From Opitutia bacterium (GTDB taxonomy: Bacteria; Verrucomicrobiota; Verrucomicrobiia; Opitutales; Opitutaceae): a stretch of DNA of 64,000 bases. The translations under genes were made by a program, and so were the position numbers. Of this stretch, positions 7,003-43,654 are shown piece after piece. The notes under the pieces were generated by a model. That model ran no database searches, had not been told where the DNA came from, and saw nothing but the letters and a program-made list of their open reading frames with translations. The stretch spans positions 1 to 64,000 of the forward strand of contig CANFSZ010000001.1 in assembly GCA_947449835.1 (NCBI GenBank), in the 5' to 3' direction. Positions within the stretch are counted from its first letter, which is position 1; each line of letters begins with the position of its first letter.

Positions 7003-7773
7003 ATGCGCTTAAAGGACAAAGTCATTATCGTCACCGGCGGCACTTCGGGGATCGGTCAGGCGATCGCGGAGCGTTGCGTCGCGGAAGGCGCGCGCGTGCT
7101 GGTGCACGGGATCGTGCGTGCGGACGGCGAAGCGGTCGTGAAAAAACTAGGTGCGGCGGCGGCGTTGCACCTCGACGATTTGGCGGATCCGACGAGCGCG
7201 GGTCGCATCGTGGCGGCCGCGCGCACGGCCTTTGGGCGGGTCGATGCACTGGTGAACAACGCCGCAATTGTGCCGCGCAGTACGTTGGCGACGGCGACCG
7301 TAGAAAATTTTGACCGCACGATGGCGATCAACGTGCGGGCCCCGTTTTTTCTGATTCAGGCGGCATTTCCTGAGCTGAAAGCGAATCAAGGCTGCGTGTT
7401 AAACATCGGTTCGATCAACGCGTACAGCGGCGAGGCTACGCTTCTCGATTACAGTATTTCCAAAGGCGCGCTGCAGACGCTCTCGCGCAATCTCGCCAAC
7501 GCGCACGGTACGGACCGAGTGCGGATTAACCATCTCAACGTCGGTTGGGTGCTGACGGCGCGCGAATATGCGGACCAACAAAAATGGGGGCAGGCGGCGG
7601 ATTGGCCGGAGCACCTGCCGGCGGTGTTCGCGCCCTCGGGCCGGTTAATGCGCCCCGAAGAAATCGCGGCGGCGGCTGTTTATTGGCTCGGCGATGAATC
7701 GCGGCCCATCACCGGCTCGGTCGTCGAGTTGGAGCAATTTTCGGTGTTCGGTCGCAACGCGGTGAAAATTTAA
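7003..7773 (+). CDS. Short-chain dehydrogenase/reductase
   Basis: A classical SDR of 256 residues: cofactor motif TGGTSGIG at 11-18, NNAA segment, Ser near SINAYSG and catalytic Tyr150-x-x-x-Lys154 in YSISKGAL. It is the third gene of the + strand catabolic operon and starts 17 bp after the zinc-type dehydrogenase. Reduction or oxidation of a sugar-derived carbonyl is likely. Substrate and cofactor preference are not assignable from sequence alone. Confidence 0.87.
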   Translation: MRLKDKVIIVTGGTSGIGQAIAERCVAEGARVLVHGIVRADGEAVVKKLGAAAALHLDDLADPTSAGRIVAAARTAFGRVDALVNNAAIVPRSTLATATVENFDRTMAINVRAPFFLIQAAFPELKANQGCVLNIGSINAYSGEATLLDYSISKGALQTLSRNLANAHGTDRVRINHLNVGWVLTAREYADQQKWGQAADWPEHLPAVFAPSGRLMRPEEIAAAAVYWLGDESRPITGSVVELEQFSVFGRNAVKI

Positions 7774-7794
7774 TTTTTTTCAAAAAAAATAAAA

Positions 7795-8685
7795 ATGCCT
7801 AAACTCGCTGCATTTCCCAAAGCCTTCATGCGGGCGCTCTGCAAAGACGGCACGATGACGTTGCGCGAATGGGTCGAGCTCGCGGCTCCACTCGGGCTCG
7901 ACGGGTTGGAGTATTATAGCGGCATGCTGGAGTTGGCTGATCCGTTGAAGTGGTCGGCGGCGCGGCGCACGGTGGAAGAGCGCGGGATGGTGATTCCGAT
8001 GCTCTGTTGCTCGCCGGATTTCTCGCACCCCGATGCGGATTTTCGCGCCCAGGAAATTGAGAAGGAAAAAAACTGGATACGCATGGCCGCGGCGCTGGGC
8101 GCAGGTTATTGCCGCGTGCTTTCTGGTCAGCGGCGGCCAGAGCTGACGCGGGAGCGCGGGCTCGATTTGGTCGCGCAGAGTATCGAGGCCTGTTTGCCCG
8201 AGGCGGAACGCTGCGGCGTCACGCTGATCATCGAGAATCACTACAAAGACGATTTTTGGAGTTACCCGGAGTTCGCGCAGAAAATGGATGTGTTTTGCGC
8301 GCTGGTGGAACGCGTGAAGCACCCGCGCTTCGGCGTGAACTACGACCCGAGTAATGCGTTTCTCGCGGGAGATGATCCGCTGGAGTTGCTCGAGCGGGTG
8401 AAGCACCGCGTCGTGACCATGCATGCGAGTGATCGCTATTTGGCCGAGGGCACGATCGAGGATTTGCGCCGCGATGAAACCGGTGCGGAGGGCTACGCCA
8501 AACGCCTCCGGCACGGGACGATCGGCAAAGGTTTGAACGACTACGACGCGATCTTTGGTGCGTTGAAAGCCGTGGGTTTTGACGGCTGGGTGAGCATCGA
8601 GGATGGGGTCGATGGCATGGAGCAATTGGCGGAGAGCGTGCAATTCGTTCGGCGCAAGTTGCGGCAGCATTGGCCGGTAGCATAG
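7795..8685 (+). CDS. Sugar phosphate isomerase/epimerase (xylose isomerase-like TIM barrel)
   Basis: A 296-residue AP_endonuc_2/xylose-isomerase-like barrel. Typical metal-site segments include LIIENHYKDDF (Glu and His), FGVNYDPSNAF, VVTMHASDRY and a final Glu in GWVSIEDGVDG. It starts 21 bp after the SDR and closes the operon. The group includes L-ribulose/L-xylulose-5-phosphate 3-epimerases, ketose 3-epimerases and myo-inositol enzymes. Together with the HUMPS enzyme and two dehydrogenases this suggests a route for a sugar acid or rare ketose. Confidence 0.82.
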   Translation: MPKLAAFPKAFMRALCKDGTMTLREWVELAAPLGLDGLEYYSGMLELADPLKWSAARRTVEERGMVIPMLCCSPDFSHPDADFRAQEIEKEKNWIRMAAALGAGYCRVLSGQRRPELTRERGLDLVAQSIEACLPEAERCGVTLIIENHYKDDFWSYPEFAQKMDVFCALVERVKHPRFGVNYDPSNAFLAGDDPLELLERVKHRVVTMHASDRYLAEGTIEDLRRDETGAEGYAKRLRHGTIGKGLNDYDAIFGALKAVGFDGWVSIEDGVDGMEQLAESVQFVRRKLRQHWPVA

Positions 8686-8726
8686 ATTTAGCTCTCAATT
8701 TGTCCCGGGGCGGGTCAGTTTGAGTT

Positions 8727-10511
8727 ATGGAAAAACGTCTCTTTACCGAATTGGGCCTTTCGCCCGAGCTACTCAAAGCCGTGGAAAAAATGGGCTTTGA
8801 GGAAGCATCGCCCATTCAGACTGCGGTAATTCCGACGATTCTCGCTGGGCGCGATGTGGTCGGTCAGTCCTCGACCGGCTCCGGCAAGACCGCCGCATTC
8901 GCCATTCCCGCCATCGACAAAGTCGACGTGCAGAGCCGCGCCGTACAGGTTTTGATTTTGTTGCCGACGCGCGAATTGGCGGTCCAAGTCGCAGAAGAAG
9001 TGGCGAAACTGGCGTTTTTCAAACGCGGTCTCCGCGAGTTGCCCGTTTATGGTGGCCAAAGCTACGAGCGCCAATTCCGCGGCCTCGATGCCGGCGCGCA
9101 GGTCGTGATCGGTACGCCTGGTCGCTTGATGGATCATATGGAGCGCGGCTCGCTGAAGTTGGATAAACTGAAGCTCGTGATTCTTGACGAGGCCGACCGC
9201 ATGCTCGACATGGGTTTCCGCGAAGACATCGAAAAAATCCTCTCTTCGGTCCCGGATCAGCGCCAGTTGCTCTTTTTCTCGGCCACGATGCCGAAGGCGA
9301 TCCAAGATCTGATTAAGCGCTACTCGCGCGATCCTGCTTGGATCAAGATCGAGTCCTCCGCTCAAAACGCCCCGCAAGTCGATCAGGTTTACTTTGAAGT
9401 CGACCGCCGTTCGAAGATCGAAGCGCTCACGCGTCTGATCGACGTGCATGATTTTCGCTACGGCATCATTTTCTGCAGCACGAAGATAATGTGCGACGAA
9501 CTCGCCGAGATCCTCTCTGCGCGCGGTTACGCGGTCGACCGCCTGCACGGCGACATCACGCAGATGCAGCGCAACCGCGTCATGGATAAATTCCGTAAGC
9601 GCGGCTTCGAGTTCCTCGTGGCGACTGACGTCGCGGCGCGTGGGCTCGATGTCGATGACCTCGAAGTCGTCTTCAACTACGATTTACCGAACGACGCCGA
9701 AGATTACACGCACCGCATCGGTCGCACTGGCCGCGCGGGCAAGTCGGGTCGGGCGTTCACCTTCGTCTGCGGCCGCGAACTCTGGGTGCTCCAGAATTTC
9801 ATCCGCTACGCCAAACTTAAGATCCGCCGCGAAAACATTCCCTCGCTCGATCAAGTCGAGGAAGCGCGTGAAAATGTGTTTTTCGAAAAATTGCGCGACA
9901 CGCTCAACGCCGCCAAATTCCGCAAACAAGACCGCATGATCGACCGCCTCTTGGAACAGGGCTATCCGAGCACGGATATTTGCTCGGCCTTGATTCACTT
10001 GTTGCAAGGCGGCGGTGCCGGCCCCGATAAGCCCGATGCTAAACCCGCGCCCAAGGCCCCGACCAGTTCGGCGCCGAGCTGGGCGACGAAGAAAGCCGCT
10101 CCTGCGCTCGCCGCGGGCTCGGCTGCGGCGGACGCGCCCAAGTCGTCCGGCCCGACGAGTTATGCCTCGCGGCCTAAAGTCGCCGCGCCGGTCGCTGTGG
10201 AACGCGAACCTGCTCGCGCCGAGGGCGATTTCGCTCCACCCGCGCGCACGGGTTTGGAAAAAGGCTTCACGACGATCTTCCTCAACGTCGGGCGCAAACA
10301 CCTCGTCACGCCCGCGGATATCGTGGGCAAAGTCGCCGGGGTCACGCGTCTGCCCGGCAATGTCGTCGGCGCGATTGATATTCACCAACGTCACACGCTC
10401 GTTGATATCGCTGAAGATCAGGCGCTTTTCGTGATCGAAAAACTCACGGGCATCCGCGTGAAAGGCGAATCGCTCACGCCCTCGGTTGCGACGGCGGGCG
10501 ACAAAGCCTGA
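8727..10511 (+). CDS. DEAD-box ATP-dependent RNA helicase with DbpA-type RNA-binding tail
   Basis: A 594-residue helicase. Domain 1: Q motif near SPIQ, Walker A STGSGKT (49-55), PTRELA, GTPGRLMD, DEAD (154-157) and SAT. Domain 2: HGDITQMQR, VATDVAARGLD and HRIGRTGRAG. An Ala/Pro/Lys-rich linker (about 430-510) follows. The last 75 residues (TTIFLNVGRKHLVTPADIV through VIEKLTGIRVKGE) match a DbpA-type RNA-binding domain, so a role in ribosome assembly is likely. It stands alone, starts 41 bp after the sugar isomerase and ends 48 bp before a strong terminator. Confidence 0.92.
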   Translation: MEKRLFTELGLSPELLKAVEKMGFEEASPIQTAVIPTILAGRDVVGQSSTGSGKTAAFAIPAIDKVDVQSRAVQVLILLPTRELAVQVAEEVAKLAFFKRGLRELPVYGGQSYERQFRGLDAGAQVVIGTPGRLMDHMERGSLKLDKLKLVILDEADRMLDMGFREDIEKILSSVPDQRQLLFFSATMPKAIQDLIKRYSRDPAWIKIESSAQNAPQVDQVYFEVDRRSKIEALTRLIDVHDFRYGIIFCSTKIMCDELAEILSARGYAVDRLHGDITQMQRNRVMDKFRKRGFEFLVATDVAARGLDVDDLEVVFNYDLPNDAEDYTHRIGRTGRAGKSGRAFTFVCGRELWVLQNFIRYAKLKIRRENIPSLDQVEEARENVFFEKLRDTLNAAKFRKQDRMIDRLLEQGYPSTDICSALIHLLQGGGAGPDKPDAKPAPKAPTSSAPSWATKKAAPALAAGSAAADAPKSSGPTSYASRPKVAAPVAVEREPARAEGDFAPPARTGLEKGFTTIFLNVGRKHLVTPADIVGKVAGVTRLPGNVVGAIDIHQRHTLVDIAEDQALFVIEKLTGIRVKGESLTPSVATAGDKA

Positions 10512-31330: not shown

Positions 31331-34063
31331 ATGGCCGAGATCACCAAGAGCTACGAATCCCGCGATGTTGAGCAGAAATGGTACGCCGCCTGGCAACAGG
31401 CCGGCTGCTTTGCGGGCAAGGTCGTACCCGGCCAACCCGCTTACAGCATCGCCATCCCGCCGCCCAACGTCACTGGCGTGCTTACGATGGGCCACGTGCT
31501 CAATAACACCATTCAAGACATCCTCATCCGCCGCGCGCGTCTCGAGGGCAAATCCGCGATGTGGCTCCCTGGCACCGATCACGCCGGCATCGCCACGCAG
31601 ACCGTCGTCGAGCGTCAGCTCCGCAAAGAAAAGAAAACGCGCCACGATTTCGGCCGCGAGAAATTCGTTGAGAAGGTCTGGGAATGGCGCGAGGAAAAGG
31701 GCGGCATCATCCTCGAGCAACTTCGCCGGCTCGGCGCCTCCTGCGATTGGGATCGCACGCAGTTCACGATGGACGCGCATTATTCGCAGGCCGTGTTGGG
31801 CGTGTTCGTGAAACTCTTCGAGCGCGGCAACATCTACCGCGGCAAACGCATGGTGAACTGGTGCCCGGCGTCGCAGACCGCTCTCTCCGACGAAGAAGTG
31901 ATCATGAAGCCGGTCAACGGCACGATCTACCGCGTCCGCTACGAGCTCACGCAAGCCCCCGGCCAATTCATCGAGGTCAAAACCACGCGCCCCGAGACGA
32001 TCCCCGGCGACGTCGCCATCGCCGTGCACCCCGAAGATCCGCGTTACGCCGCGCTCATCGGCCAGACGGTCTGGCGTCCGCTCAACCGCACCGCGATTCC
32101 GATTATCGCCGACGCGGCTGTGGACAAAGAATTCGGCAGCGGAGCGCTTAAAATCACGCCCGCCCACGACAAGGTCGATTTCGAGGTCGGCACCCGCCAC
32201 AAGCTTCAGATCATCGATGTGCTCAACGCCGACGGCACGCTCAACGCCCTCGCCGGCCCCGAACTCGCCGGCCTAGATCGTTTCGCGGGCCGCAAGAAAG
32301 CCGCCGAGCTTTTAAAAGAATCCGGCGCCCTCGTCGCCGAAGAAGCTTACGCCAACAACGTCGGTTATTCCGAGCGCGCCGATGTGCCGATCGAGCCGCG
32401 CCTCACGTGGCAATGGTGGCTGCGTTATCCGCGGATCGAGGAAGCCAAGACCGCCGTCCGCGATGGCCACATCAAGTTTCACCCCGAGCGTTGGAGCAAA
32501 GTTTACCTCCACTGGCTTGAGAACATCCAAGATTGGTGCATCAGCCGTCAGCTCTGGTGGGGCCATCGCATTCCGGTTTGGTACCGCAAAGGCGTCGATA
32601 AGGAGACGCTCACCGAGGCTGATCTCCGCGACGGCAATAAAGTTCACATCTCGCTCACCGGTCCCGCCGACCCAGCGAATTGGGTGCAAGAAGAAGACGT
32701 GCTCGATACCTGGGCCTCGTCCTGGCTCTGGCCTTTTGCCACGTTGGGTTGGCCCGACGCGCAGAAAATGCAGGCCTCGGGCTACAATTATTTTTATCCG
32801 ACGAGCACGCTCGTGACCGGACCTGACATTATTTTCTTCTGGGTCGCGCGCATGATCATGGCCGGCCTCGAGTTCACGCATGAAGGTGAGTCGCTGGAAA
32901 AACGCATTCCGTTTAAGGATGTGTATTTCACAGGCATCATCCGCGACCAACAGGGTCGCAAGATGTCGAAGTCGCTCGGCAACTCGCCTGATCCGCTCGA
33001 TCTGATCAACAGCTACGGCGCCGACGGTCTGCGTTTCGGCATCATCTCCATCGCACCGCAAGGGCAGGACATTCGCTTCCAAGAAGACCGCATCGAGGGC
33101 GGGAAAAATTTCTGCAACAAGCTCTGGAACGCCTCCCGTTTCCGCCAGATGAGCGGCGAGATGAGCGACAACTCCTCGCTCGCCGCCATCGCCGCGCGGC
33201 TCGATGGCGCGAAGTTCGACGCCGACGATCACGCCATCCTCGAGCGCTTGCTCGCCACCACCCGCGAAGTGGATCGTTGCTTCGCGCACTTCGAATTCAG
33301 CGGCGCCGTCCAAGCGCTGTATGGGTTTTTCTGGAATGATTTCTGCGATTGGTACGTCGAAGTCTCTAAATCCAAACTGCAGGCTCCGGACACGAAGGGC
33401 AATTGCCTCGCACTTCAGGATCTCGTGTTGCGGCAGACGCTGCTGTTGTTGCACCCCGTGATACCGTTTATCACGGAAGAACTCTGGACGTTGCTCGGGT
33501 ACGGAGCGGCGGGCACGTTTCTCATGCGCGATGCGCGCGTCGAAGATGCAGAGACGTGCACGCGCATCCTCGCGGCGGCGGGCGTGCGGCTCGATCTCGC
33601 GCAAGCCTCGACGGTCGAAAGCGTGAAGGCGTTTGTCTCGCAAGCGCGCGCGCTCAAAGCCGAGCACAACCTCGCCAGCCGACGTGACGTGCGGTTTTTA
33701 GTAAAGACGAACGACGCCGCGTGGGCGGTCTTGGCCGCGAGTCTGAGCAAACTAACACGCATGGCGGGAGCGACCGAGTTTGTGCGCCAGGAAATCGTTG
33801 AAGGTGCACCGGCCGTCGTGACGACGCTCGGCACGCTTTATCTCGATCTCGCGAGCACGGTCGATCCCGCGGCTGAAAAAGTGCGCCTCACCAAAGAACT
33901 CGACGCGATCGCCAAACACATCGCCGGCACGGAAGCGCGCCTGAGCAACGAAGCGTTTGTGAGCAAGGCGCCACCGGCGGTGCTTGAAGGCGCGCGCAAA
34001 CAACTCACCGATCAAAAAGCGAAACAAACCGAGCTCACGCGCTTGCGGGCTGCGTTGGGCTAA
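31331..34063 (+). CDS. valS: Valine-tRNA ligase
   Basis: A 910-residue class I aminoacyl-tRNA synthetase. The HIGH-type motif is TMGH (52-55) within PPPNVTGVLTMGH, and KMSKS is at 544-548. The editing domain includes TTRPETIPGDVA and GSGALKITPAHDKVDFEVG. An anticodon-binding helical bundle and a C-terminal coiled coil (AEKVRLTKELDAIAKHIAGT) complete it. A second ATG is not needed. A tRNA gene lies 77 bp downstream. Confidence 0.97.
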   Translation: MAEITKSYESRDVEQKWYAAWQQAGCFAGKVVPGQPAYSIAIPPPNVTGVLTMGHVLNNTIQDILIRRARLEGKSAMWLPGTDHAGIATQTVVERQLRKEKKTRHDFGREKFVEKVWEWREEKGGIILEQLRRLGASCDWDRTQFTMDAHYSQAVLGVFVKLFERGNIYRGKRMVNWCPASQTALSDEEVIMKPVNGTIYRVRYELTQAPGQFIEVKTTRPETIPGDVAIAVHPEDPRYAALIGQTVWRPLNRTAIPIIADAAVDKEFGSGALKITPAHDKVDFEVGTRHKLQIIDVLNADGTLNALAGPELAGLDRFAGRKKAAELLKESGALVAEEAYANNVGYSERADVPIEPRLTWQWWLRYPRIEEAKTAVRDGHIKFHPERWSKVYLHWLENIQDWCISRQLWWGHRIPVWYRKGVDKETLTEADLRDGNKVHISLTGPADPANWVQEEDVLDTWASSWLWPFATLGWPDAQKMQASGYNYFYPTSTLVTGPDIIFFWVARMIMAGLEFTHEGESLEKRIPFKDVYFTGIIRDQQGRKMSKSLGNSPDPLDLINSYGADGLRFGIISIAPQGQDIRFQEDRIEGGKNFCNKLWNASRFRQMSGEMSDNSSLAAIAARLDGAKFDADDHAILERLLATTREVDRCFAHFEFSGAVQALYGFFWNDFCDWYVEVSKSKLQAPDTKGNCLALQDLVLRQTLLLLHPVIPFITEELWTLLGYGAAGTFLMRDARVEDAETCTRILAAAGVRLDLAQASTVESVKAFVSQARALKAEHNLASRRDVRFLVKTNDAAWAVLAASLSKLTRMAGATEFVRQEIVEGAPAVVTTLGTLYLDLASTVDPAAEKVRLTKELDAIAKHIAGTEARLSNEAFVSKAPPAVLEGARKQLTDQKAKQTELTRLRAALG

Positions 34064-34097: not shown

Positions 34098-34387
34098 TTG
34101 ACCTAGGGCGGAGGTGGCGCACCGTTTTCCGTTCTACTGATGCCTGATGGTGTAATGGCAGCACAGGTGACTTTGACTCACCTAGTCATGGTTCGAATCC
34201 ATGTCGGGCAGCCAGTGGGAAAAAACCGAGAACTTTTTTCGAGATAGGTCAAAATTTCACGCAGGTAGCTAAAGATAATAGCGAAACGGAAGTAGGCGTT
34301 TTGACCTAGGTGTGCGCTAGTTCTTCATTCCATCCATGCCGGGAGGTGAAATCTACCGGCTTCACTTGTCCAAAAAAGATAGGTCAA
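34098..34387. repeat. Four copies of TAGGTCAA in alternating orientation around tRNA-Gln
   Basis: The octamer occurs at 34098-34105 (-), 34245-34252 (+), 34301-34308 (-) and 34380-34387 (+). Two copies are part of the longer identical string GATAGGTCAAAA (34243-34254 and 34378-34389), and the third is the inverse TTTTGACCTA. One copy lies upstream of the tRNA and three in the otherwise gene-free stretch after it. This arrangement suggests binding sites for a recombinase or regulator at the island edge. Confidence 0.55.
34141..34214 (+). tRNA. tRNA-Gln (UUG anticodon)
   Basis: A complete cloverleaf of 74 nt with an encoded CCA. The acceptor stem is TGCCTGA/TCGGGCA with a T-G wobble at pair 5. 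The anticodon stem GGTGA/TCACC encloses the loop CTTTGAC, giving anticodon TTG. The T loop GTTCGAATC is canonical. The accessory island begins right after its 3' end, a common integration position, but I see no second copy of the tRNA 3' end at the far side of the island. Confidence 0.95.
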
Positions 34388-34456: not shown

Positions 34457-35656
34457 CGTGGTGTCCCAAAACTCGAACGAGGGCGTGGTAGAAGTGGTCT
34501 TGCCGGCGAAGTGATCAGCGAGAGGGTCGGGTGGATGAACTTTCGTGAGCCCACATATGTGTTTCTCGGCATCCTCACGGGTTGGTTAAACCGGCACCAA
34601 CTAGCCGTCATCGAGTATCTACAAACGGAGAACGAAATCTTGAAACGCCAGCTTGATGGGCGGCGGCCTCGATTAACCGACGGCGATCGGCGGCGCCTGG
34701 CTATCAAAGGCAAGGCGCTTGGACGGAGAGCGCTGGCGGCCTTGGCCGGCATAGTTACACCCGACACGATCTTGGCGTGGCACCGCCGCTTGGTGGCTAT
34801 GAAATGGACGTTTCCCAATCGGCGGCCAGGACGTCCGAACGTTCCGGCCGAGGTGCGAAATCTGATTTTGGAAATGGCGCGAGTTTCGCCGCGGTGGGGT
34901 GAGGAGAAAAACCATCTACGTCAGTCCTTCGAAGGATCGGCTGGGCAACCTCGGCTATCGGGTCGGTCGCGCGACGGTGGCAAGGGTCCTCAAAGAGAAC
35001 GGATTGGAACCGGCGCCGAAACGCAGTCGAGAGATGTCGTGGATCGCATTTTTGAAAGCGCAGTGGGCCGGGATGGCAGCAATCGACTTCACGACTGTCG
35101 AGGTTTGGACTGCGGGCGGTCTGGTCGGATACTATGTGGCGTTTGTGATGGAGTTGGCTACTCGTCGGGTGACCTGCGGTAGTGACACCACACATCCCGA
35201 CGGAGCTTGGATGCAGCCTGGTGGCTAGGAATTTGACCGATGCGATTTCCGGATTCTTGAATTGGAAGAAATACCTGATCATTGATCGGGACGTGCTCTT
35301 TCATGCGAGCTTTCGACGCATGCTGGAGCAGGCTGGAATTCGGCCGGTGCAAGCACCGCCAAGTGCACCGAACTGCAACTCCTATCTCGAGCGATTCAAC
35401 GGATCGTTTAAGCGGGAGGCGGCAAGTCGTGTGATTTTCTTCGGCGAGTCTTACCTGCGTCGGGTCGTAAATGAGTATTTGGCCCATTTCCATCAGGAGC
35501 GAAACCACCAAGGTCGCAGCGTAAAGATCATCGAGCCTGGCGAGGAGGTTGGGTTAACCGAAGGCCAGATTTGCCGCCGCGAGCGCCTCGGTGGCATGTT
35601 CAATTATTACTACCGCGATGCCGCTTAGCTCGCCGTTCGAGTTTTGAGACACCACG
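34457..35656 (+). mobile_element. Decayed insertion sequence with 23-bp imperfect terminal inverted repeats
   Basis: The left end (34457-34479) begins CGTGGTGTCCCAAAACTC and the right end (35634-35656) is its inverse with one mismatch; the consensus core is TGGTGTCYCAAAACTCGAAC. The 1.2-kb element contains a single rve/DDE transposase gene broken in two places. No clear target duplication is seen at the ends. A related copy in the opposite orientation lies at 37832 to about 38510. Confidence 0.75.
34511..35628 (+). pseudogene. Transposase (rve-type DDE integrase fold), frameshifted in two places
   Basis: Three frames together make one transposase. 34511-34900 encodes the N-terminal HTH part (ENEILKRQLDGRRPRLTDGD, DTILAWHRRLVAMKWTF, up to SPRWG). 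About 34930-35217 encodes LGYRVGRATVARVLKENGL and the first Asp (AAIDFTTVEVW). 35215-35628 encodes the second Asp (IIDRD) and the Glu (NSYLERFNGSFKRE), ending FNYYYRDAA. The first frame change is near 34898-34955, where the sequence also looks scrambled; the second is near 35217. It is not functional as it stands. Confidence 0.82.
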
Positions 35657-35861: not shown

Positions 35862-35913
35862 TAAGAGCATAGGCGGATAGGCTCGATTTCGAGCCTATCC
35901 GCCTATGCTCTTA
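35862..35913. repeat. Perfect 24-bp palindrome IR1 upstream of abiEi
   Basis: Arms 35862-35885 and 35890-35913 are exact inverse copies around a 4-nt spacer (ATTT). The centre is GCTCG-N4-CGAGC, the same centre as in the second palindrome. No T-run follows. It lies just upstream of the predicted -35 region of the abiEi promoter, so it is best read as an operator for the AbiEi regulator. Confidence 0.8.
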
Positions 35914-35932: not shown

Positions 35933-35961
35933 TTCAAAAAATTGACACGCGTGGTTATACT
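35933..35961 (+). promoter_or_regulatory. Predicted promoter of the abiE pair
   Basis: A TTCAAA (35933-35938) and a TATACT (35956-35961) are separated by 17 bp. The -10 box lies inside the left arm of the second palindrome. A consensus TTGACA at 35942-35947 is also present, but no good -10 box follows at the right distance. Transcription from TATACT would start near 35968, 14 bp before the ATG. Confidence 0.5.
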
Positions 35962-36000
35962 GCTCATGCTCGTTTACGAGCATGAGCAGTATAACCACGC
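35949..36000. repeat. Perfect 25-bp palindrome IR2 covering the abiEi promoter and start codon
   Basis: Arms 35949-35973 and 35976-36000 are exact inverse copies; the centre is GCTCG-N4-CGAGC as in IR1. The left arm contains the predicted -10 box and the right arm contains the abiEi ATG (35982-35984). Binding there would block transcription, and the same sequence in RNA would fold into a long hairpin over the start codon. Confidence 0.82.
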
Positions 36001-36962
36001 AATCAATCACATTAGATCGCCAAAAAAGTGCGTTCCAAGCCGAGCTCTTGCGCCGAGTCGCCGTGGCCTCGGAAGAATTTCCCACCGTCCGCTGTTGGTC
36101 TGCTCGTAAATTTCGCGGGCTCCTCGGCCATCTGCGCTCCTCCCTCCTCGACGCAAAGATCATATCTTCCTCGTTCCCTCGCACCGACGCTCTTCTCGAC
36201 TGGCTGATCTCGACCGGTCTGGTCTTTCCCCTGCCGGTCGCCCCTGGCTCCAGCGCCCAAGCCGAAACGCAGTTCTATCTAGTGGAAGTAGGGGCTGGAC
36301 CGCAGTCCGTCGTCAGCCCCTTTGAACTCCTCCAGGCCTTCCAGCCTCAAGGGATCGTCAGCTTCTTCAGCGCCCTCTCGTTCCACGGCCTTACGACCCA
36401 GCCTCCGCCCTTTCACCATACCGCGATCCCGACCCCGCGCCCGCCCGGTCTGCCCCGGGAGCGCCCCGTCCCCGAAACGTCCCCGTCTCCTACCGCCGCA
36501 CCCCACCGAGATCACTTGGGCAGCCATGCGTTCACGCATGACTCCATACGTTACTATTCCACCAAACGTTACCGCGACCTCGTGCCTGGCATCCAAACGC
36601 AGATTCTCGACCCCCGGATCCATCTCCGCGTGACCGACCTTGAACAGACGCTGCTCGATACCCTCATGCAACCCGACGCCTGTGGCGGCCAGAGCGTGAT
36701 CTTCGAAGCCTGGGGTAATTTGGACCGCGCCCGGCCTGAGCGTCTCGCCGATTACCTCCACCGTCTCACGCTCCCCGTGCTGACCCGCCGGCTCGGGGCC
36801 CTCCTCAATCTCACCGGCATCGCGCCGCCGGCACCCCTCCTGCCGGTCCTCGCCGGAGCCCGCCGCCTCTTCGCCTCCGCGCCCGGCCCGCAGGTGCCTC
36901 TCTTCCGCGGCCAGCCCGGCACGCTCCTCGATCTCGAGTGGAATGTGCTCACCCCCGCCTAA
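35982..36962 (+). CDS. AbiEi-like antitoxin/transcriptional autorepressor of a type IV toxin-antitoxin system
   Basis: A 326-residue protein. The N-terminal 90 residues look like a winged helix (FRGLLGHLRSSLLDAK..ALLDWLISTGLVF). The C-terminal part has AbiEi features: SPFELLQAFQPQGIVSFFSALSFHGL, DPRIHLRVTDLEQTLLDTL and a following GG..VIFEAW. AbiEi proteins neutralise the AbiEii nucleotidyltransferase without stable binding and repress their own promoter by binding inverted repeats. Two such repeats stand upstream, one spanning the start codon. The toxin gene starts 3 bp after the stop. A Pro-rich stretch (about 155-185) is an unusual insertion. Confidence 0.78.
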   Translation: MSSITTQSITLDRQKSAFQAELLRRVAVASEEFPTVRCWSARKFRGLLGHLRSSLLDAKIISSSFPRTDALLDWLISTGLVFPLPVAPGSSAQAETQFYLVEVGAGPQSVVSPFELLQAFQPQGIVSFFSALSFHGLTTQPPPFHHTAIPTPRPPGLPRERPVPETSPSPTAAPHRDHLGSHAFTHDSIRYYSTKRYRDLVPGIQTQILDPRIHLRVTDLEQTLLDTLMQPDACGGQSVIFEAWGNLDRARPERLADYLHRLTLPVLTRRLGALLNLTGIAPPAPLLPVLAGARRLFASAPGPQVPLFRGQPGTLLDLEWNVLTPA

Positions 36963-36965
36963 CTC

Positions 36966-37877
36966 ATGCGCCCCGACCAATTCGAACGCTGGAAATCCAA
37001 AGCTCTGGCCGAGGTCTTCGCGGCCATCGCTGCGTCCGACGCCCTCCGTTCCCGGCTCATCTTCAAAGGCGCCCGCGTGCTCACCCTGCGCCTCGACCTC
37101 GAACGCCAGTCGTTCGATTTGGACAGCAGCCTCACCACGGACTTCGCGCTTGAAACCGCCGACCTCAAGGCGCAGGGCGACTTCCTCCAAGCCGCGCTCG
37201 CCACCGCTCTCGAACGGTATTTCTCCGGCCAACGCGTCGTCCGCTATACCCTGGAGAGTGTGACGCTCAAATCCCGCGAGCATCCCCTCGGCTGGGACAG
37301 CCACGCCGCCGCCGTCCGGCTCCGCGACGGCCTGTTCGCCAACGTGCTTAATCTGCCCGGGATCGAAATCGATATCAGCGCGCCCGAACCACTTTCGCCC
37401 CACGCCGTTTCCGATCTGCCGATCGGCGAGCACACCGTGCGCGCCTACACCCTCGAACGCATCGCCGGCGAAAAACTCCGTGCCTTTCTCAGCACGCTGC
37501 CCGACTACCGAAAAAAAATGAAAAAGCCTGGCGAAGCGATCCGCGTCAAAGACCTCTACGATCTCGCCCGGATTTGCCGCTTCCGTCCGCTCACCGACCG
37601 CGAGTTCTGGCGCAAAGCGGCCGAAGACTTCCGGCTCGCCTGCGCCGCCCGCTACATCGACTTCGCGGGTCCCGAGACGTTTCGCCAAAACGGGTCCGCG
37701 ACGGAGCAGGCCTTCGTGTCCGATCCGACCCTGCCTAAGGACGTCACCTTCGCCGAAGTAGACGCGATGCTCATGAGTATAGGCGCACTCTTGGTCGAAG
37801 AAAAAGTCGCCCCGCTGCACTTCCCGCTCCCCGTGGGATCTCAAAATCCGAACAACAACCAAGCCGCGTCGCGATAA
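36966..37877 (+). CDS. AbiEii-like nucleotidyltransferase toxin (DUF1814 family), C terminus replaced by IS sequence
   Basis: A 303-residue protein with the AbiEii motif series. Motif I is GARVLTLRLDLERQSFDLD, where GS is replaced by GA but the D-x-D is kept. A second acidic block is GIEIDIS. Motif III is AGEKLRAFLS and motif IV IRVKDLYDLARI. Such proteins bind GTP and cause reversible growth arrest; they can act as abortive-infection effectors. The last 14 residues (from VGSQNP on) are encoded by the end of the adjacent decayed IS (37832 onward), so the native C terminus has been lost or altered. Whether the toxin is still active is uncertain. Confidence 0.75.
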   Translation: MRPDQFERWKSKALAEVFAAIAASDALRSRLIFKGARVLTLRLDLERQSFDLDSSLTTDFALETADLKAQGDFLQAALATALERYFSGQRVVRYTLESVTLKSREHPLGWDSHAAAVRLRDGLFANVLNLPGIEIDISAPEPLSPHAVSDLPIGEHTVRAYTLERIAGEKLRAFLSTLPDYRKKMKKPGEAIRVKDLYDLARICRFRPLTDREFWRKAAEDFRLACAARYIDFAGPETFRQNGSATEQAFVSDPTLPKDVTFAEVDAMLMSIGALLVEEKVAPLHFPLPVGSQNPNNNQAASR

Positions 37878-38510
37878 TAGTAGTGGAACATGCCGCCGAG
37901 ACGTTCACGATGACGGATATTTCCGTGCGTGCGGTCGATCACGCTGTCGGGTTCGATAATTTTGTTGTCGAGCCCCTGGTGGTTTCTATCGCGGTGATAA
38001 TGGTCGAGGTATCCGTCGATCACGCGCTGCAATTGGATTCTCCAAAAAAAACCACGCGATCCAACGCTTCGCGTTTGAACGACCCATTAAATCGCTCGAG
38101 ATACGCATTGCAGTTTGGAGCGCTCGGCGGGATGCGAACGGGCTGAATTCCCGCCTGCTCAATCGGGCGCATAACCCCCTAGGCACAGAGTGCGTCTCGA
38201 TCTATAACTAGAAAGCGCTTTCCACGGAGAAGACCCGTCGCGACGTCCGTCTGGTTGCGGCCGATCTGCTGCATCCAGCTGCTATCGGGATGCCGTGTGA
38301 TCCCGGCGCAGGGGACCTTACGCGTGGCCAGCTCCACCGCGAATGCCACCTTTTAGGTTACCCAGCCTCTCGCATAAGTCCACGTCATGGCCACCAGTCG
38401 GCGGTTCCAGGCCAAGATGGTATCGGGGGGAGACGACTCAGGCGACGGACTCCAGTGCTCTTCTGAGCGAGTCCCGAAAACTGGGCCAAGTGTAGTGTTA
38501 GTCTTTGGCC
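37832..38510 (-). pseudogene. Second related IS/transposase, inverted, internally deleted
   Basis: On the - strand the sequence encodes pieces of the same transposase type: DTILAWNRRLVAMTWT (near 38430-38385), then after a deletion ELATRKVPCAG, FLVIDRDALCA, PSAPNCNAYLERFNGSFKREA and finally DHYHRDRNHQGLDNKIIEPD to YYYRDAA (ending near 37868). Stops and frame changes are frequent and the segment with the first catalytic Asp is missing. The end at 37832-37854 matches the first IS terminal repeat at 18 of 23 positions. The start near 38510 is approximate. With the first IS it brackets the abiE pair in opposite orientation. Confidence 0.75.
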
Positions 38511-38612
38511 TGGTTTGATGTTACGATTTGGTCCACCCATCGCATCGGATAGACCGAGTTAGCGAATCCTGGGCATATCCATTAGTGGGGATGGTGGCCC
38601 CATAATTAGGGG
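38511..38612. other. Short gap before the recombinase-like pair
   Basis: About 100 bp with no gene. It should hold the promoter of the recombinase-like pair, but I see no convincing -35/-10 combination. Confidence 0.3.
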
Positions 38613-40049
38613 ATGAACCACCCAAATGGCCATAATCCTAACGACATTAATTTCGCGGGCGCGTCAGCGCCTGCGCCGCAGATCACGCCGGCAGGGGGAG
38701 GCATGAAGCTAACCCAACTGCAGTTGCCGTATGAAGAATTAAGGGAAGAAGAATCTGGGGAAAGGGAGTGGGATGGAAAAAGATGGCTGCCGAAGTTTCA
38801 GCGCCGGAAAATCGGGTGCCGCGGTTGGGGCAAATTCTCTCTACGGCTAAGTATAGTGCCAGGTAAGCGCTGTGTCATATCCTTGAGGACTGTCGATATG
38901 TGTGTCGGTGAGACACGACGAATACTGGTGATGGACACGATCGCTGGGTTAAAAAAAAGGGGCTTAAGTAAGTCGTATATTCTCGGTAAAATTAACAACG
39001 CTTTATCGCTTGATGAGGACACGCCATTGAATGCATTGCTGCGAGCTGAGATAGCGCGCGGCAACAAAATCAATCGCATTACAGTAGGCCAGATTATCGA
39101 GTTGAATTCAAGTTGTCCTATGCTTGCGGGAAGAAAAGGGCGCAAACCCAAGCAAGTGCTCGCGCAAGCTACGGCGATCCGACAATTGGCACGTCTTGCT
39201 GTGGCTTCGCGTCTAAAATTAAGTACTGAAAAGTGCTCTAGCTTGAAAAAAGAGGACCTGCAACAAGTGCCTTTGGCATGGGTGACCACTAAGGACTTGG
39301 TGGCGAAATACAAATTACTTGGGGAAAGAAATGTACATAATAAAGAAAATGGAAAGCAGCGCACTCTATATAACCATGTATCAACTGTAAAAGGATTGTT
39401 TACGCCTGAATTTAAACGGCATTTGCATTGTAATAATGTTATCATCCCGAAATCGTTTTTGAATATACTGAGTTTAAAAATTCGCGCCACGCCTACTAAT
39501 GGCCCTGTATTATTGCGCGTTTCCGATTTTCGATTAGTATGTGAAACAATATTGGCTGCAGTTCGCGAGGGCGCTCCTGAGGCTTGGATGCTCGTATATG
39601 AACTTTTTTGTCCGTCAAAAAATGCGCGTTATGAAGTCGGTAGGCTTGACACTATATTAACGCCGGATGGCATGATAAATACAGACTGCGGCAGGATAGC
39701 CCTCCCGTCAGGAGTAGCTAAATGGCTTAGGTGTGTGCCTCCATTTTCCGCAGGCAGCAGCCCAGTCTCTGCTACTCAGATTAGGCGCACGATCGGACTT
39801 GTGGTGGCTCGCCTAAAGTCAATGCGTATTAGCTCATGGCTTAAGAAGCCGCGTACGGAATTGAAGCACATAGGTCAGGCGCGTATATATTTTAAATTTC
39901 GCGGTTCGGGGTTAAAATCACTCGGGATATCTCTTAGTCCTAATATGGAGGAGTACTACCGGAGCTACGCGAGTTCGGTTTTGGAATTATTGGATTCTTT
40001 GTCGGATGATATTGGAAAAATAGTAAGCAATCAAAAAGGCGTGCAATAA
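38613..40049 (+). CDS. Tyrosine-recombinase-like protein without recognisable catalytic residues (hypothetical)
   Basis: A 478-residue protein of clearly AT-richer, island-like base composition with many ATA and TTA codons. I do not recognise a named family. Its layout resembles a tyrosine recombinase: a basic N-terminal half (RKGRKPKQVLAQATAIRQLARL, QRTLYNHVSTVKGLF) and a C-terminal part that starts AWMLVYELFCPSKNARYEVGRLDT, where an active enzyme would have G-L-R-x-x-E. No H-x-x-R, G-H or nucleophile Tyr pattern follows. It is therefore inferred to be a catalytically inactive partner of the next gene, 12 bp downstream. An ATG at 38703 after GGGGGAGG is an alternative start. Confidence 0.6.
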   Translation: MNHPNGHNPNDINFAGASAPAPQITPAGGGMKLTQLQLPYEELREEESGEREWDGKRWLPKFQRRKIGCRGWGKFSLRLSIVPGKRCVISLRTVDMCVGETRRILVMDTIAGLKKRGLSKSYILGKINNALSLDEDTPLNALLRAEIARGNKINRITVGQIIELNSSCPMLAGRKGRKPKQVLAQATAIRQLARLAVASRLKLSTEKCSSLKKEDLQQVPLAWVTTKDLVAKYKLLGERNVHNKENGKQRTLYNHVSTVKGLFTPEFKRHLHCNNVIIPKSFLNILSLKIRATPTNGPVLLRVSDFRLVCETILAAVREGAPEAWMLVYELFCPSKNARYEVGRLDTILTPDGMINTDCGRIALPSGVAKWLRCVPPFSAGSSPVSATQIRRTIGLVVARLKSMRISSWLKKPRTELKHIGQARIYFKFRGSGLKSLGISLSPNMEEYYRSYASSVLELLDSLSDDIGKIVSNQKGVQ

Positions 40050-40061
40050 AATTATAATACA

Positions 40062-41285
40062 ATGAAAAACAAAAACGAAAATCGGTTGATATTAAGTGCG
40101 CGTAAAATAGCTTCAGAATTGATCGCTTTTAATGAAAGTCCATTTGATGAATTTGATATAATAAGTGGCGAATGGGAGCAGGATGATTTCTATTATATGG
40201 AATATGAATGGTTTTGGGCTCCTGATACTTGGGCTTTAATATATAATTTGCCGAAAAAATACAACTTGTGGTGTTTTGTTGAGACTTCGCTCTCTACTAG
40301 TACTACGCAAAATAAGACGATATGGGCTTATGTTTCCGCGTTAGTCGATGTAGTCTGGCTTGGGCTAGCAAAAGAACTGGCTCCGGACTTTATTCCTAAG
40401 CGTAGTCGGGCTACAAAACTGAAAGTGTATAGCATTATATTAGCGCTACCTGCGGATGTGATTACTCTTGAGCTGGCTGAGGATTATTTGACCGGACGAA
40501 TGGCGGTAGCGGAGAAAATATTAATCGAACTAGGTGGCGAAGAGAGGGCCAATTCAATAATTAGGACAAGCACTGGAAAACTTAATCAGGCGCGCCAGTT
40601 TTTTTCAGGACGTCATGGAGCTGTGCACGCTTATCTTGGGCGTAAGCTACCAGCCGGTGCTAGCGATTTTTGCGCGGCAGCGGGGCTGGATATAGAGCGT
40701 AAAAACTACACCGCGCCAAGCGAGGATCAATTTATTCACCTATTGCGTATTGTAACCGAACTTGAGAATTCAGATTTTCCTAATTATGTATTTTTTGTGC
40801 TTGTGATCTGGGCTGGCTTGCGGGCTGCAGAAGCTATGCATGCCCGGGTATCTTGGGTTTTGGATTCTACGAATTTTCCGATTATTGATGTTCGTAATGA
40901 GTGCGATTTGATAACGAAAAGCAGGCGTCCTCGGAAAGTTCGAATATTGCCGCATGTATCAATTATATTGCAATCAATAAAAGGAGAGTATCTGGTTTCT
41001 GATTCAAAATCCGAGCGACTTCGTGCCTACCAAAACGCGATCAATATTTTGAAGGAAATTAAAATACCTGATAAGAAGCCTGTCCACTATATGCGCCGTA
41101 TATTTTATACGGCGACTACGAAGCAATTTGGTGCTGAAGAAGCCAGGCGATCAGCAGGTCATGTTAGCTTTGGCGTTGGCATGAATTCCTATACATTTAA
41201 AGAATTTGGGTCTGAGCTGCTACGGTTATGGTTGACTGGTCCTCATGGTTTGTATAACGCTGCTCCACATGTGTCTTGCGTATAG
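40062..41285 (+). CDS. Divergent tyrosine recombinase/integrase
   Basis: A 407-residue protein, AT-rich like its upstream neighbour. The C-terminal catalytic domain shows WAGLRAAEAMHARVSWV (Arg I with G-L-R-x-x-E), then TKSRRPRKVRILP, HYMRRIFYT (box II H-x-x-R) and SAGHVSFGVGMNSYTF (box III G-H with the candidate nucleophile Tyr). The spacing from GH to Tyr is one residue longer than usual. The N-terminal 200 residues are unlike standard core-binding domains. It is the second gene of a two-gene unit at the right end of the island and is a candidate for the enzyme that moved it. Overall similarity to known integrases looks low. Confidence 0.65.
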   Translation: MKNKNENRLILSARKIASELIAFNESPFDEFDIISGEWEQDDFYYMEYEWFWAPDTWALIYNLPKKYNLWCFVETSLSTSTTQNKTIWAYVSALVDVVWLGLAKELAPDFIPKRSRATKLKVYSIILALPADVITLELAEDYLTGRMAVAEKILIELGGEERANSIIRTSTGKLNQARQFFSGRHGAVHAYLGRKLPAGASDFCAAAGLDIERKNYTAPSEDQFIHLLRIVTELENSDFPNYVFFVLVIWAGLRAAEAMHARVSWVLDSTNFPIIDVRNECDLITKSRRPRKVRILPHVSIILQSIKGEYLVSDSKSERLRAYQNAINILKEIKIPDKKPVHYMRRIFYTATTKQFGAEEARRSAGHVSFGVGMNSYTFKEFGSELLRLWLTGPHGLYNAAPHVSCV

Positions 41286-41398
41286 AGGGTGAGTTTTTGA
41301 TTTCTCTGTGCTGTTAAATTTTTAATATACTTTGTGGATCACTAGATAATTTTGCGTCTTATTGAAACAGCACTAGCCGCGTTTGGCTCGATGCAGTA
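41286..41398. other. AT-rich right edge of the island
   Basis: A 113-bp gap with no gene. It keeps the AT-rich composition of the recombinase pair up to about 41370 and then returns to the GC-rich chromosome. No copy of the tRNA-Gln 3' end and no TAGGTCAA octamer is visible here. Confidence 0.4.
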
Positions 41399-43654
41399 TC
41401 ACTTCATGATCGAGTAAAGGTCTGCTTTATCGTCGGTCCACAGAATGCCTTTGGGGTGATTCGATTTCGACGTTTCCGTGGCGGCAGCGATTTTTGGGGC
41501 GCTAAAGAGTGAACGGTTGCGGGAAACTAACATCCACGTCGTGGAGTAAAGCCAGGCTTCGTCGACCGGTTCATCTGAAATGCACGCTATGCCTAAGCCG
41601 AATTCTTGCGCGAGGCGTTCGACGACGGGTTGCAGGTCGAGATAGCGGTTGGAAATGTGGATCGCGATGACCCCATCGGGTTTGAGGTGTTTTAAATAGA
41701 TGCCGAAAGCCTCACGGGTGAGCAGGTGCACCGGAATCGCGTCGCTGCTGAAGGCGTCGAGCGCAAGCAGGTCCAGCGACTGCGGTTTCCCGAGGGCCAG
41801 TTCGCGTTCCATCATGAGTCGGGCGTCGCCCATGATCACATTGAGCTTCGCCGGGCAACGGGCCAGATAGGTGAACGATTCGCGGGCTAAGCGCTCGACG
41901 GCGGGGTTGATCTCGTAGATGCGGACATAATCGCCCGCAGCGCCATACGCGGCGAGAGAACCGGTGCCGAGACCGACGACGCCCAAGCGTTTGGGACCTT
42001 TTTCCGTGAGGTGCTGGATCGCGAGGCCCACGCCGCTAGTCGCGCCGTAGTAGGAAGTGATCGAGTTGGCGCGGTCGGGCGCCGTGAATTGCAGGCCGTG
42101 AGTCGTCGCACCGTGCATGAGCAGGTGGTAGTTTTCGGCGGGATTTTCGCGAGAGTAATTGAGGACTTTTAGCGTGCCGTAGAAATTGCGCGAGGAGCGC
42201 AGCACCGGCACCGGATCAGCGGCGCGGAGTTGCTTCGTGATCGTGTAGCCGAGTTGGACGGCGAGTAACACGACCGGAAGTGCGAGAATCGGGCGCCATA
42301 TGGCGGCGAGTGTTCGTTGCCTAAAATCGATCATGCTCACGACGGCTACGGCGAGACCTGAGGCCAGTAGGGCCATATGGACGTCGAAAAATTTACGAAA
42401 CTCAAAAGCGAGTCCGTCGCTGCCATCGCAGGTCGAAAATAGCGCGGGCAAGATCAGCGTCGTAAGCACGGCGCCGGCGATCGCGCCGAGGGCGAGTGCG
42501 CGACTGCGTTGACGGACACAGATGAGTGCGACAATGGTGCCGAGAACGATGAGGCTGAGCGGGAACTCGAGATAATCATTAAAAACCGCCGGAGCCACGA
42601 CGGCGATCAGCAGGCCGCCTAGCGCGCCGCCGGCGGAGATGTAGAGAAAATACGACGTCAAACGCTGGGGCGCTGGTTTGAGCTGATACAGTTCGCCGTG
42701 GCAAATCATGCAGGCCACGAAGAGTGTGGCGTTGTAGATTACGATCTGAAGCTTCATCGGCGCGTCACTGCCGGCGTCGATTAAAACCACCACGCTCGCC
42801 AATCCTACGACTAGCAAAGCGGCAAAGACGCCGCGATGGTACCAACGCGCGTGGTCGAAGCAGATGACAAAACTCAGTAGATAAAGCGCAAGGGGTAGTA
42901 CCCATAAAAATGGAATAACCGCGACCTCTTGGCTGAGTTTATTGGTGATCGCTAGCAGCAATACCGACGCAATCGCCGGCAAGGCAATCCAAAGGGTTTT
43001 CACACTCCAATGTGTCGGCGCGTCAACCGCTGCCGCGGGGTCTAAAACCGCCCCGCTCGCCGCGTCTTGCGGGTTTTGGCGCCACAAGCGAACCGCGCTC
43101 CATCCACAAAGCACCGCAAATAAGACGAGACCGATCGACCACAGCACCGCTTGCTCAATCCTGGTAAACTTAACTTCGAAAAACACCGGATAACTCAGCA
43201 GCGCCAGCAACGAACCCACATTGGAAAGCGCGTACAGTCGATAGGGTGAGACTCCGGGATGAATGACGCTAAACCAGCGCTGCATGAGCGGCCCGGTGGA
43301 TGAGAGCACAAAGTAGGGCAGCCCGATCGTTACGCTGAGTAAGCACAGTATGCGCAGCGAAGGATCGCCGGCGAGTACCGGTTTCCACGTTTCCGATGGT
43401 GTTATCGGCAACAAGGCGAGCGAACCCAGTAAGAGAACAATGTGGAGCCCGATCTGACCGCGCGGTTTTAGATGTTTTGTGGAAAAATGAGCATAAGCAT
43501 AACCGCCCAGCAGCAGCAGCTGAAAAAATAAAAGACATGTCGTCCACACGCCGGGACTCCCCCCAAACCATGGCAGGATGTATTTGCCGATCAGGGGTTG
43601 AACTTGGAACAACAGAAAAGCGCCGGTGAAAATAGAAAGGGCGAAGGGGAGCAT
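41399..43654 (-). CDS. Membrane protein fused to a spermidine synthase-like domain
   Basis: A 751-residue protein. The N-terminal 480 residues hold a dozen or more hydrophobic segments, beginning LPFALSIFTGAFLLFQVQPLIGKYILPWFGG, typical of this fused group. The C-terminal 220 residues form a Rossmann-type aminopropyltransferase-like domain: GVVGLGTGSLAAYG, YEINPAVERLA, VIMGDARLMME, LLALDAFSSDAIPVHLLT and HISNRYLDL. The role of these fusions is not established; true polyamine synthesis is doubtful for many of them. It is the first chromosomal gene to the right of the island. Confidence 0.83.
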   Translation of the reverse strand: MLPFALSIFTGAFLLFQVQPLIGKYILPWFGGSPGVWTTCLLFFQLLLLGGYAYAHFSTKHLKPRGQIGLHIVLLLGSLALLPITPSETWKPVLAGDPSLRILCLLSVTIGLPYFVLSSTGPLMQRWFSVIHPGVSPYRLYALSNVGSLLALLSYPVFFEVKFTRIEQAVLWSIGLVLFAVLCGWSAVRLWRQNPQDAASGAVLDPAAAVDAPTHWSVKTLWIALPAIASVLLLAITNKLSQEVAVIPFLWVLPLALYLLSFVICFDHARWYHRGVFAALLVVGLASVVVLIDAGSDAPMKLQIVIYNATLFVACMICHGELYQLKPAPQRLTSYFLYISAGGALGGLLIAVVAPAVFNDYLEFPLSLIVLGTIVALICVRQRSRALALGAIAGAVLTTLILPALFSTCDGSDGLAFEFRKFFDVHMALLASGLAVAVVSMIDFRQRTLAAIWRPILALPVVLLAVQLGYTITKQLRAADPVPVLRSSRNFYGTLKVLNYSRENPAENYHLLMHGATTHGLQFTAPDRANSITSYYGATSGVGLAIQHLTEKGPKRLGVVGLGTGSLAAYGAAGDYVRIYEINPAVERLARESFTYLARCPAKLNVIMGDARLMMERELALGKPQSLDLLALDAFSSDAIPVHLLTREAFGIYLKHLKPDGVIAIHISNRYLDLQPVVERLAQEFGLGIACISDEPVDEAWLYSTTWMLVSRNRSLFSAPKIAAATETSKSNHPKGILWTDDKADLYSIMK

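Follow-up and report, generated by a model that had tools for sequence, protein, structure and literature searches.

A catalytically complete tyrosine recombinase and a remote, catalytically empty homologue encoded side by side in a tRNA-Gln island of an Opitutaceae bacterium

Tyrosine recombinases normally combine DNA binding and catalysis in a single polypeptide chain. GInts carry the ginABCD operon, which encodes three recombinases and the small protein GinD; all four genes are reported to be essential, including the one for GinC, a recombinase-like protein described as being without the first arginine of the catalytic set (PMC5385486). Strand-biased circularizing elements (SEs) are organized as intA-tfp-intB-srap, with two active recombinases and terminal inverted repeats, and Tfp, encoded between the active recombinases, is described as a protein with the recombinase fold and without the catalytic motif, which the same account finds missing from both Tfp and GinC (PMC10214605). 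According to a table note in that publication, the archetype RIT has a catalytic tyrosine in each of its three recombinases and is bounded by 34-bp terminal inverted repeats (PMC10214605). Here, we describe two adjacent open reading frames (ORFs), ORF1 and ORF2, in a 64,000-nucleotide stretch of an Opitutia bacterium (family Opitutaceae; assembly GCA_947449835.1, contig CANFSZ010000001.1, positions 1 to 64,000), hereafter the window. ORF2 is a divergent tyrosine recombinase, or integrase, in good catalytic order by sequence, and ORF1 is a real but remote homologue of tyrosine recombinases that is catalytically empty.

By gene content, the pair is a member of neither the GInts, the SEs nor the RITs, although it resembles each of them in one respect. 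Like the GInt operon as described, it includes a recombinase-like protein devoid of part of the catalytic set, but it consists of only two genes rather than three recombinase genes and a small fourth one, and the imperfect direct repeats reported to flank GInts have no counterpart found at the right end here. Tfp of the SEs is, like ORF1, a recombinase-type protein without the catalytic motif; the locus nevertheless is set apart from the SEs, as these are portrayed in the source, by the lack of a second active recombinase, of Srap or any fourth gene and of terminal inverted repeats. With the RITs it shares adjoining recombinase genes in one unit, but there are two genes instead of three, one of them catalytically empty, and no flanking inverted repeats comparable to those in the cited table note. 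A GInt-like operon is present in genome G015 (locus L117), where proteins of 412, 515, 671 and 152 amino acids, named by reading of the sequence, are encoded after an ssb-like gene; BLASTP of ORF1 and ORF2 against its GinA, GinB and GinC yielded nothing below E = 0.5 (best values, 0.58 and 0.75). The pair may still work like part of one of these systems. Given that inactive partners are already known (GinC, Tfp), a two-gene pair is a variation on a known theme; in the literature searched, we found no two-gene integrase made of an active and an empty protein, which is no proof of absence. G015 (C1) also contains four RIT-like copies of three adjacent recombinase genes, near 1.51, 3.83, 5.65 and 5.68 Mb (L118), recognized as repeated Phage_integrase matches.

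ORF2 carries, in order, R254, E257, K286, H342-x-x-R345, G366-H367 and Y377, that is, the complete R-K-H-R-H/W-Y set by which tyrosine recombinases are defined, in register with 33 relatives. Among these 34 proteins, E257, K286, R345 and Y377 are present in all, R254 and H342 in 32 and H367 in 30. The match to Pfam Phage_integrase is weak and below the family cut-off (E = 0.19), and PHROG 216 and PHROG 1 integrases are matched at 2.3e-8 and 1.3e-5, respectively. An initial search of 95 genomes gave matches to ORF2 in 3 of them and a phylum sample of 387 in 5, own genome counted in both, and a seven-protein profile (A1; E = 1e-10; only the best candidates per genome scored) placed relatives in 30 of the 273 genomes of the order, again with the own genome counted. 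The closest by BLASTP is in G461 (76.6 bits, 25% identity), followed by those in G301, G026, G183 and, fifth, G031; plasmids, phages and scans of genome and viral contigs contained none. The best PDB match of ORF2 (E = 0.59) was dismissed as chance. The set of 33 relatives omits fragments (L110, L114), further copies (L106, L107) and duplicates (L086, L087, L088, L101), as well as L113 and L115.

ORF1 has no match at E = 1 in Pfam, NCBIfam, PHROGs or PADLOC, and BLASTP detects no similarity to ORF2 (best E = 0.12). By contrast with these direct searches, a profile of 33 integrases, with ORF2 excluded, matches residues 72–426 of ORF1 with a score of 50.2 (probability 88%, E = 2.7e-6), colinearly across 302 columns. 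All 200 shuffled versions of ORF1 scored lower (best, 22.5), as did its reversed sequence (13.4), and because the match lies so far above these controls, ORF1 descends from a tyrosine recombinase and is homologous to integrases over their domains. The signal rose as relatives were added. With a seven-member profile, ORF1 scored no more than 25.4 at a probability of 2.4%, against 20.7 for the top one of 40 shuffles, and with a 28-member profile 39.9, compared with 23.5 for the best of 64 other ORFs and 24.4 for the best of 150 shuffles; the 28-member version included a wrongly picked ORF for L091, which was replaced by the right one in the later 33-member profile. A two-sequence HMMER search returned ORF1 at 2.5e-7. 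Scored alone, the core-binding residues 150–300 match significantly (71%, E = 3.6e-5). Single-sequence AlphaFold2 models of the two proteins, with mean pLDDT values of 37.4 and 36.3, were too poor to judge the fold. Two candidates concerning ORF1 were discarded: a weak match in G314 (E = 0.008 over 81 residues), which falls within a 106-codon frame crossing oppositely oriented ORFs, and a suspected tRNA-like stretch at the peptide GSSPVSAT, where Rfam had no match at E = 5 (positions 39600–39900).

The tyrosine is the sole catalytic residue that ORF1 has clearly retained, and the protein does not have the set required of a tyrosine recombinase. In all six MAFFT alignments, the catalytic histidine is replaced by T415, the second arginine by K418 and the GH motif by G438-I439, whereas Y449 occupies the position of the catalytic tyrosine. 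The position of the first arginine is ambiguous, being taken by K336 in four alignments and by R318 in two, and that of the beta-lysine falls in a gap in four and on an aspartate in two; hmmalign, the seventh attempt, left the catalytic part of ORF1 unaligned.

The two proteins are recognizable in different regions. Each was divided at a shared set of alignment columns, and hhalign probabilities were obtained for every part against the others. For ORF1, the N part, which comprises the arm and the first half of the core-binding region, scored 45%, the second half of the core-binding region 20% and the catalytic part 1.1%; for ORF2, the corresponding values are 0.3%, 94% and 99.3%. The pattern is complementary, ORF1 scoring best where ORF2 scores worst and vice versa. 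The order of scores in ORF1 is unique, since the catalytic part is the top-scoring one in all 33 other members. ORF2 resembles the single integrases of Verrucomicrobiota-type genomes (PHROG 216 and PHROG 1) in its family matches and catalytic residues but differs from them in that it is preceded by ORF1 and has no recognizable N part, which is recognizable (at least 89%) in 29 of the 33 relatives, the exceptions being L025, L013, L015 and L031. The case for a division of labour between the two proteins rests chiefly on this complementarity, an argument drawn from sequence and weakened by the four exceptions.

The genes lie on the same strand, separated by 12 bp, where the window is richest in A and T: the GC content of the 1-kb segments spanning 39001–41000 is 0.454 and 0.413 and that of 41001–42000 is 0.515, compared with 0.53–0.69 in all others, and third-position GC is 0.46 in ORF1 and 0.37 in ORF2, compared with 0.76 in valS. 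No further plus-strand ORF of at least 80 amino acids exists in 38147–38612 or 41286–41398, and the next gene is on the opposite strand. The original prediction, made from the letters of this DNA, had proposed two AT-rich genes at exactly this spacing, the second a divergent tyrosine recombinase with GLR..E, H-x-x-R, GH and Tyr motifs and the first of similar layout without these residues; at the level of sequence, this active/inactive pair is borne out, although the first protein does keep the tyrosine.

We tentatively favour, at somewhat short of an even chance, a heteromeric integrase in which ORF1 holds DNA and ORF2 cuts it. The two proteins would be produced as one unit; ORF2 would cut and rejoin DNA through its complete tyrosine-recombinase centre, ORF1, a long-diverged non-cutting sister, would add DNA binding and keep the complex in shape, and the assembly would act on the ends of the surrounding island at the 3' end of a tRNA-Gln gene. 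The colinear profile match, the complementary parts, the intact length of ORF1 and the shared strand, 12-bp gap and similar AT-rich composition all point this way, as does, for gene layout, a relative in G031 that is likewise second in a two-gene unit and has no recognizable N part; the physical partnership, the division of labour and the island ends as substrate are what we infer from them. A precedent is GinC, described as essential although it is without catalytic residues (PMC5385486). A bolder version, that the locus represents a minimal two-subunit integrase in which DNA binding and catalysis became split, through complementary loss, over two genes, and which acts on tRNA-Gln element ends with co-changing paired arms, a smallest relative of the multi-recombinase machines, appears doubtful. 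An empty sister protein is already part of GInts and SEs; if true, the two-gene version would be the simplest system for asking what such a partner does, because two genes and a single DNA site would suffice for the test. ORF1 might instead be a regulator that occupies the integrase sites and silences the island, or acts as a directionality factor; its DNA-binding part is recognizable without catalysis, and it is the first gene of the unit. By sequence, this role is inseparable from the heteromeric integrase, and typical directionality factors are much smaller than ORF1; we regard a regulator as quite improbable.

Several observations weigh against the heteromeric integrase. Only one example of the pair is available. 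Searches of 94 and 386 other genomes (overlapping sets) produced no credible homologue of ORF1, nor did PDB sequences, plasmids, phages or pattern scans of viral and genome contigs. The 33-integrase profile also picks GinA of a GInt, with a score of 41.8, so that the score of ORF1 denotes homology at the level of the superfamily rather than membership of the ORF2 family. Taken alone, the arm-like residues 60–150 of ORF1 (1.1%) do not match significantly and neither do the catalytic-region residues 300–478 (0.6%), and claims on both regions therefore rest on the long alignment. An unrecognized N part is not specific to paired integrases, because L025, L013 and L031 stand alone; the fourth exception, the integrase of G031 (L015), is the second gene of a two-gene unit (7143–9153), 19 bp downstream of a gene for a 274-amino-acid protein of no known family and without a match in 94 other genomes, but that protein shows no homology to ORF1 or to integrases, and the unit accordingly supports the gene layout only. 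No direct or inverted repeats were found flanking the pair, and the window has no right-hand copy (attR) of the attachment core of the island. Finally, 30 of the 33 relatives, including the four nearest to ORF2 by BLASTP (G461, G301, G026 and G183), have no co-directional ORF of at least 200 amino acids ending within 150 bp upstream, in a count for which the upstream flank was shorter than 800 bp in four cases (L105, L109, L111, L112). The remaining three are preceded by the protein of G031, an unrelated ORF (L092) and a frameshifted old integrase (L093).

The ORF2 family as a whole thus does not share the pairing, and the expectation that the two genes always co-occur fails at this level, which is the family level only, the nearest relative being 25% identical. 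The lack of partners also fits an alternative in which ORF2 is an ordinary single integrase and ORF1 a passenger, an older, diverged and non-working integrase left by repeated insertion at the same tRNA. In several genomes, differing inserts, some in tandem, occupy the 3' end of tRNA-Gln or copies of its core, and genome G018 (L093) provides a precedent, a decayed integrase lying directly upstream of an intact one. That copy, however, is frameshifted and still matches at 2e-35, whereas ORF1 is open over 478 codons with no stop or frameshift despite divergence beyond the reach of BLAST. Its loss is also selective, the catalytic region having gone while the core-binding region stays recognizable by profile, and the close spacing and similar composition of the two genes likewise speak for a partnership; we consider a passenger origin rather unlikely. 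When upstream flanks were searched by tblastn, 2 of 33 gave matches, namely the decayed copy in L093 and, in L109, the N-terminus of the integrase itself in another frame; this search misses ORF1 itself and reveals recognizable integrase remnants only, being blind to ORF1-like partners.

The pair is located in an island of ~7.2 kb inserted at the 3' end of a tRNA-Gln gene (Table 1). The island comprises an insertion sequence (IS) remnant, an AbiEi/AbiEii pair, a second transposase remnant and, at its distal end, ORF1 and ORF2. In two genomes of the same genus, G008 and G005, valS, the tRNA-Gln gene and the right-flank gene are neighbours, with 64 bp and ~400 bp, respectively, between the tRNA and the homology of the right flank, compared with 7.18 kb in the window. 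Homology to these empty sites ends at 34218, four bases past the tRNA, and returns at 41398. Insertion at a tRNA 3' end together with an empty site in relatives identifies a tRNA-targeting integrative island, as had been suspected.

Table 1. Features of the tRNA-Gln island and its flanks in the window.
Feature	Coordinates	Strand	Remarks
valS, chromosomal left flank	31331..34063	+	Name from sequence reading
tRNA-Gln (ttg), island target	34141..34214	+	Empty site in relatives
Attachment core, left junction, GGGCAGCCAGTGG	34206..34218	+	tRNA 3' end + GTGG
Left-end inverted-repeat structure	34215..34352	+	Outer GAAC/GTTC, inner GGTCAAA/TTTGACC, co-changing arms; ~110 bp
Third, direct inner-arm copy GGTCAAA	34382..34388	+	Sequence repeat
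IS remnant	34457..35656	+	23-bp inverted ends; transposase across several frames (rve_3 domain)
AbiEi-like antitoxin gene, cargo	35982..36962	+	Family match
AbiEii-like toxin gene, cargo	36966..37877	+	Family match
Transposase remnant	38036..38169	-	72% complementary to 35317-35450
ORF1	38613..40049	+	478 aa; catalytically empty tyrosine-recombinase homologue; core-binding region recognizable, arm-like region only within long alignment
ORF2	40062..41285	+	407 aa; divergent tyrosine recombinase, complete catalytic set, N part not recognizable
Right junction	41286..41398		Island sequence up to end of next gene; no attR copy found
Chromosomal right-flank gene	41399..43654	-	Spermidine-synthase-like by sequence reading; no family match

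The left attachment core is present in the window, and right-hand copies, some of them imperfect, exist in G009, G010 and G012; in G010, a complete insert lies between two core copies. The 85 bp preceding the flank gene, compared with G008, G012, G005 and G009, were beaten or equalled by 296, 209, 173 and 51 of 500 shuffles, respectively. The right end of the island thus appears to have been remodelled, with the ORF1/ORF2 pair at its distal end. With no right-hand attachment copy left, the pair is only a candidate for the mover of the island that the original prediction suggested it to be. Another recombinase might have brought the island to tRNA-Gln, the pair having come separately or as cargo, which is compatible with every other reading and to which we give somewhat less than an even chance. 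Islands with the same left end in G004, G006, G009, G010 and G012 contain no ORF2-family integrase in the stretches read, and the side from which attR is missing is precisely that of the pair. In G009, a homologue of AbiEii, 78% identical along 707 bp, is found close to the same flank gene, with an imperfect core copy on either side, and is accompanied by a further 81-bp match that ends at window position 38347, with no ORF2 relative found in that genome. On the other hand, the pair occupies the usual place of an integrase, at that end of the island which borders on the chromosomal flank, and several of the compared island contigs are incomplete.

The tRNA-Gln core is repeated in tandem, with small inserts separating the copies, in L169 of G748 (8939, 7030 and 2835, minus strand) and in L079 of G010 (170, 4210 and ~6227). 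One of these inserts contains genes that read like an AbiE-type pair, and the arrays are cassette-like, with no ORF2-type integrase visible. In the window, two perfect inverted repeats with 25-bp arms and a 2-bp centre (35862–35913 and 35949–36000) lie upstream of, or overlap, the start of the AbiEi gene, and are possibly AbiEi operators.

An inverted-repeat structure directly follows the tRNA-Gln gene at the left end of the island. The structure is common to six genomes with varying arm sequences, and the third, direct arm copy is present in most loci where it can be read; Rfam has no match at this site. In alignment A2, 17 cells are changed on both sides, compared with 7.9 in shuffles (1 of 500 reaches 17), a count based on a structure taken from that alignment itself, whereas pair types are no more numerous than in shuffles (130 of 500 reach their number). 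In alignment A7, which was fitted to the model and from which the antisense self-matches present in A6 had been removed, the cells changed on both sides exceed those of all 500 shuffles, whereas the four pairs changed on both sides do not stand out (461 of 500 reach this number). Single-strand folding of six left ends was clearly better than that of shuffles for L078 and L067, moderately so for L077, and weakly or not at all for the window, L079 and L069.

A covariance model built with the structure (R2, replacing the structure-free R1; in its alignment A5, the right outer arm of two rows is off by one column) found the structure in at least 29 of 200 genomes of the family, own genome counted, and 13 of 49 genera, a lower bound under strict filters, and did not find it in the empty-site genomes G005 and G008. 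All 30 loci returned (L119–L148) are preceded by GGGCAGCCA, in one case with a mismatch, and 24 directly follow tRNA-Gln. In the stretches read around these structures, an ORF2-family integrase occurs only in the window. The left-end structure may serve as an array of arm sites for a recombinase, changing together with that enzyme, or as a folded site, and it is possibly the end of an undescribed family of tRNA-Gln elements. A protein of ~739 amino acids is encoded within a few kilobases of the structure in G004 (L077, 3525–5741, minus strand) and in G719 (L156, 914–3133, minus strand). Its start reads like that of a large serine recombinase, and this putative enzyme could be the mover of the left-end element family.

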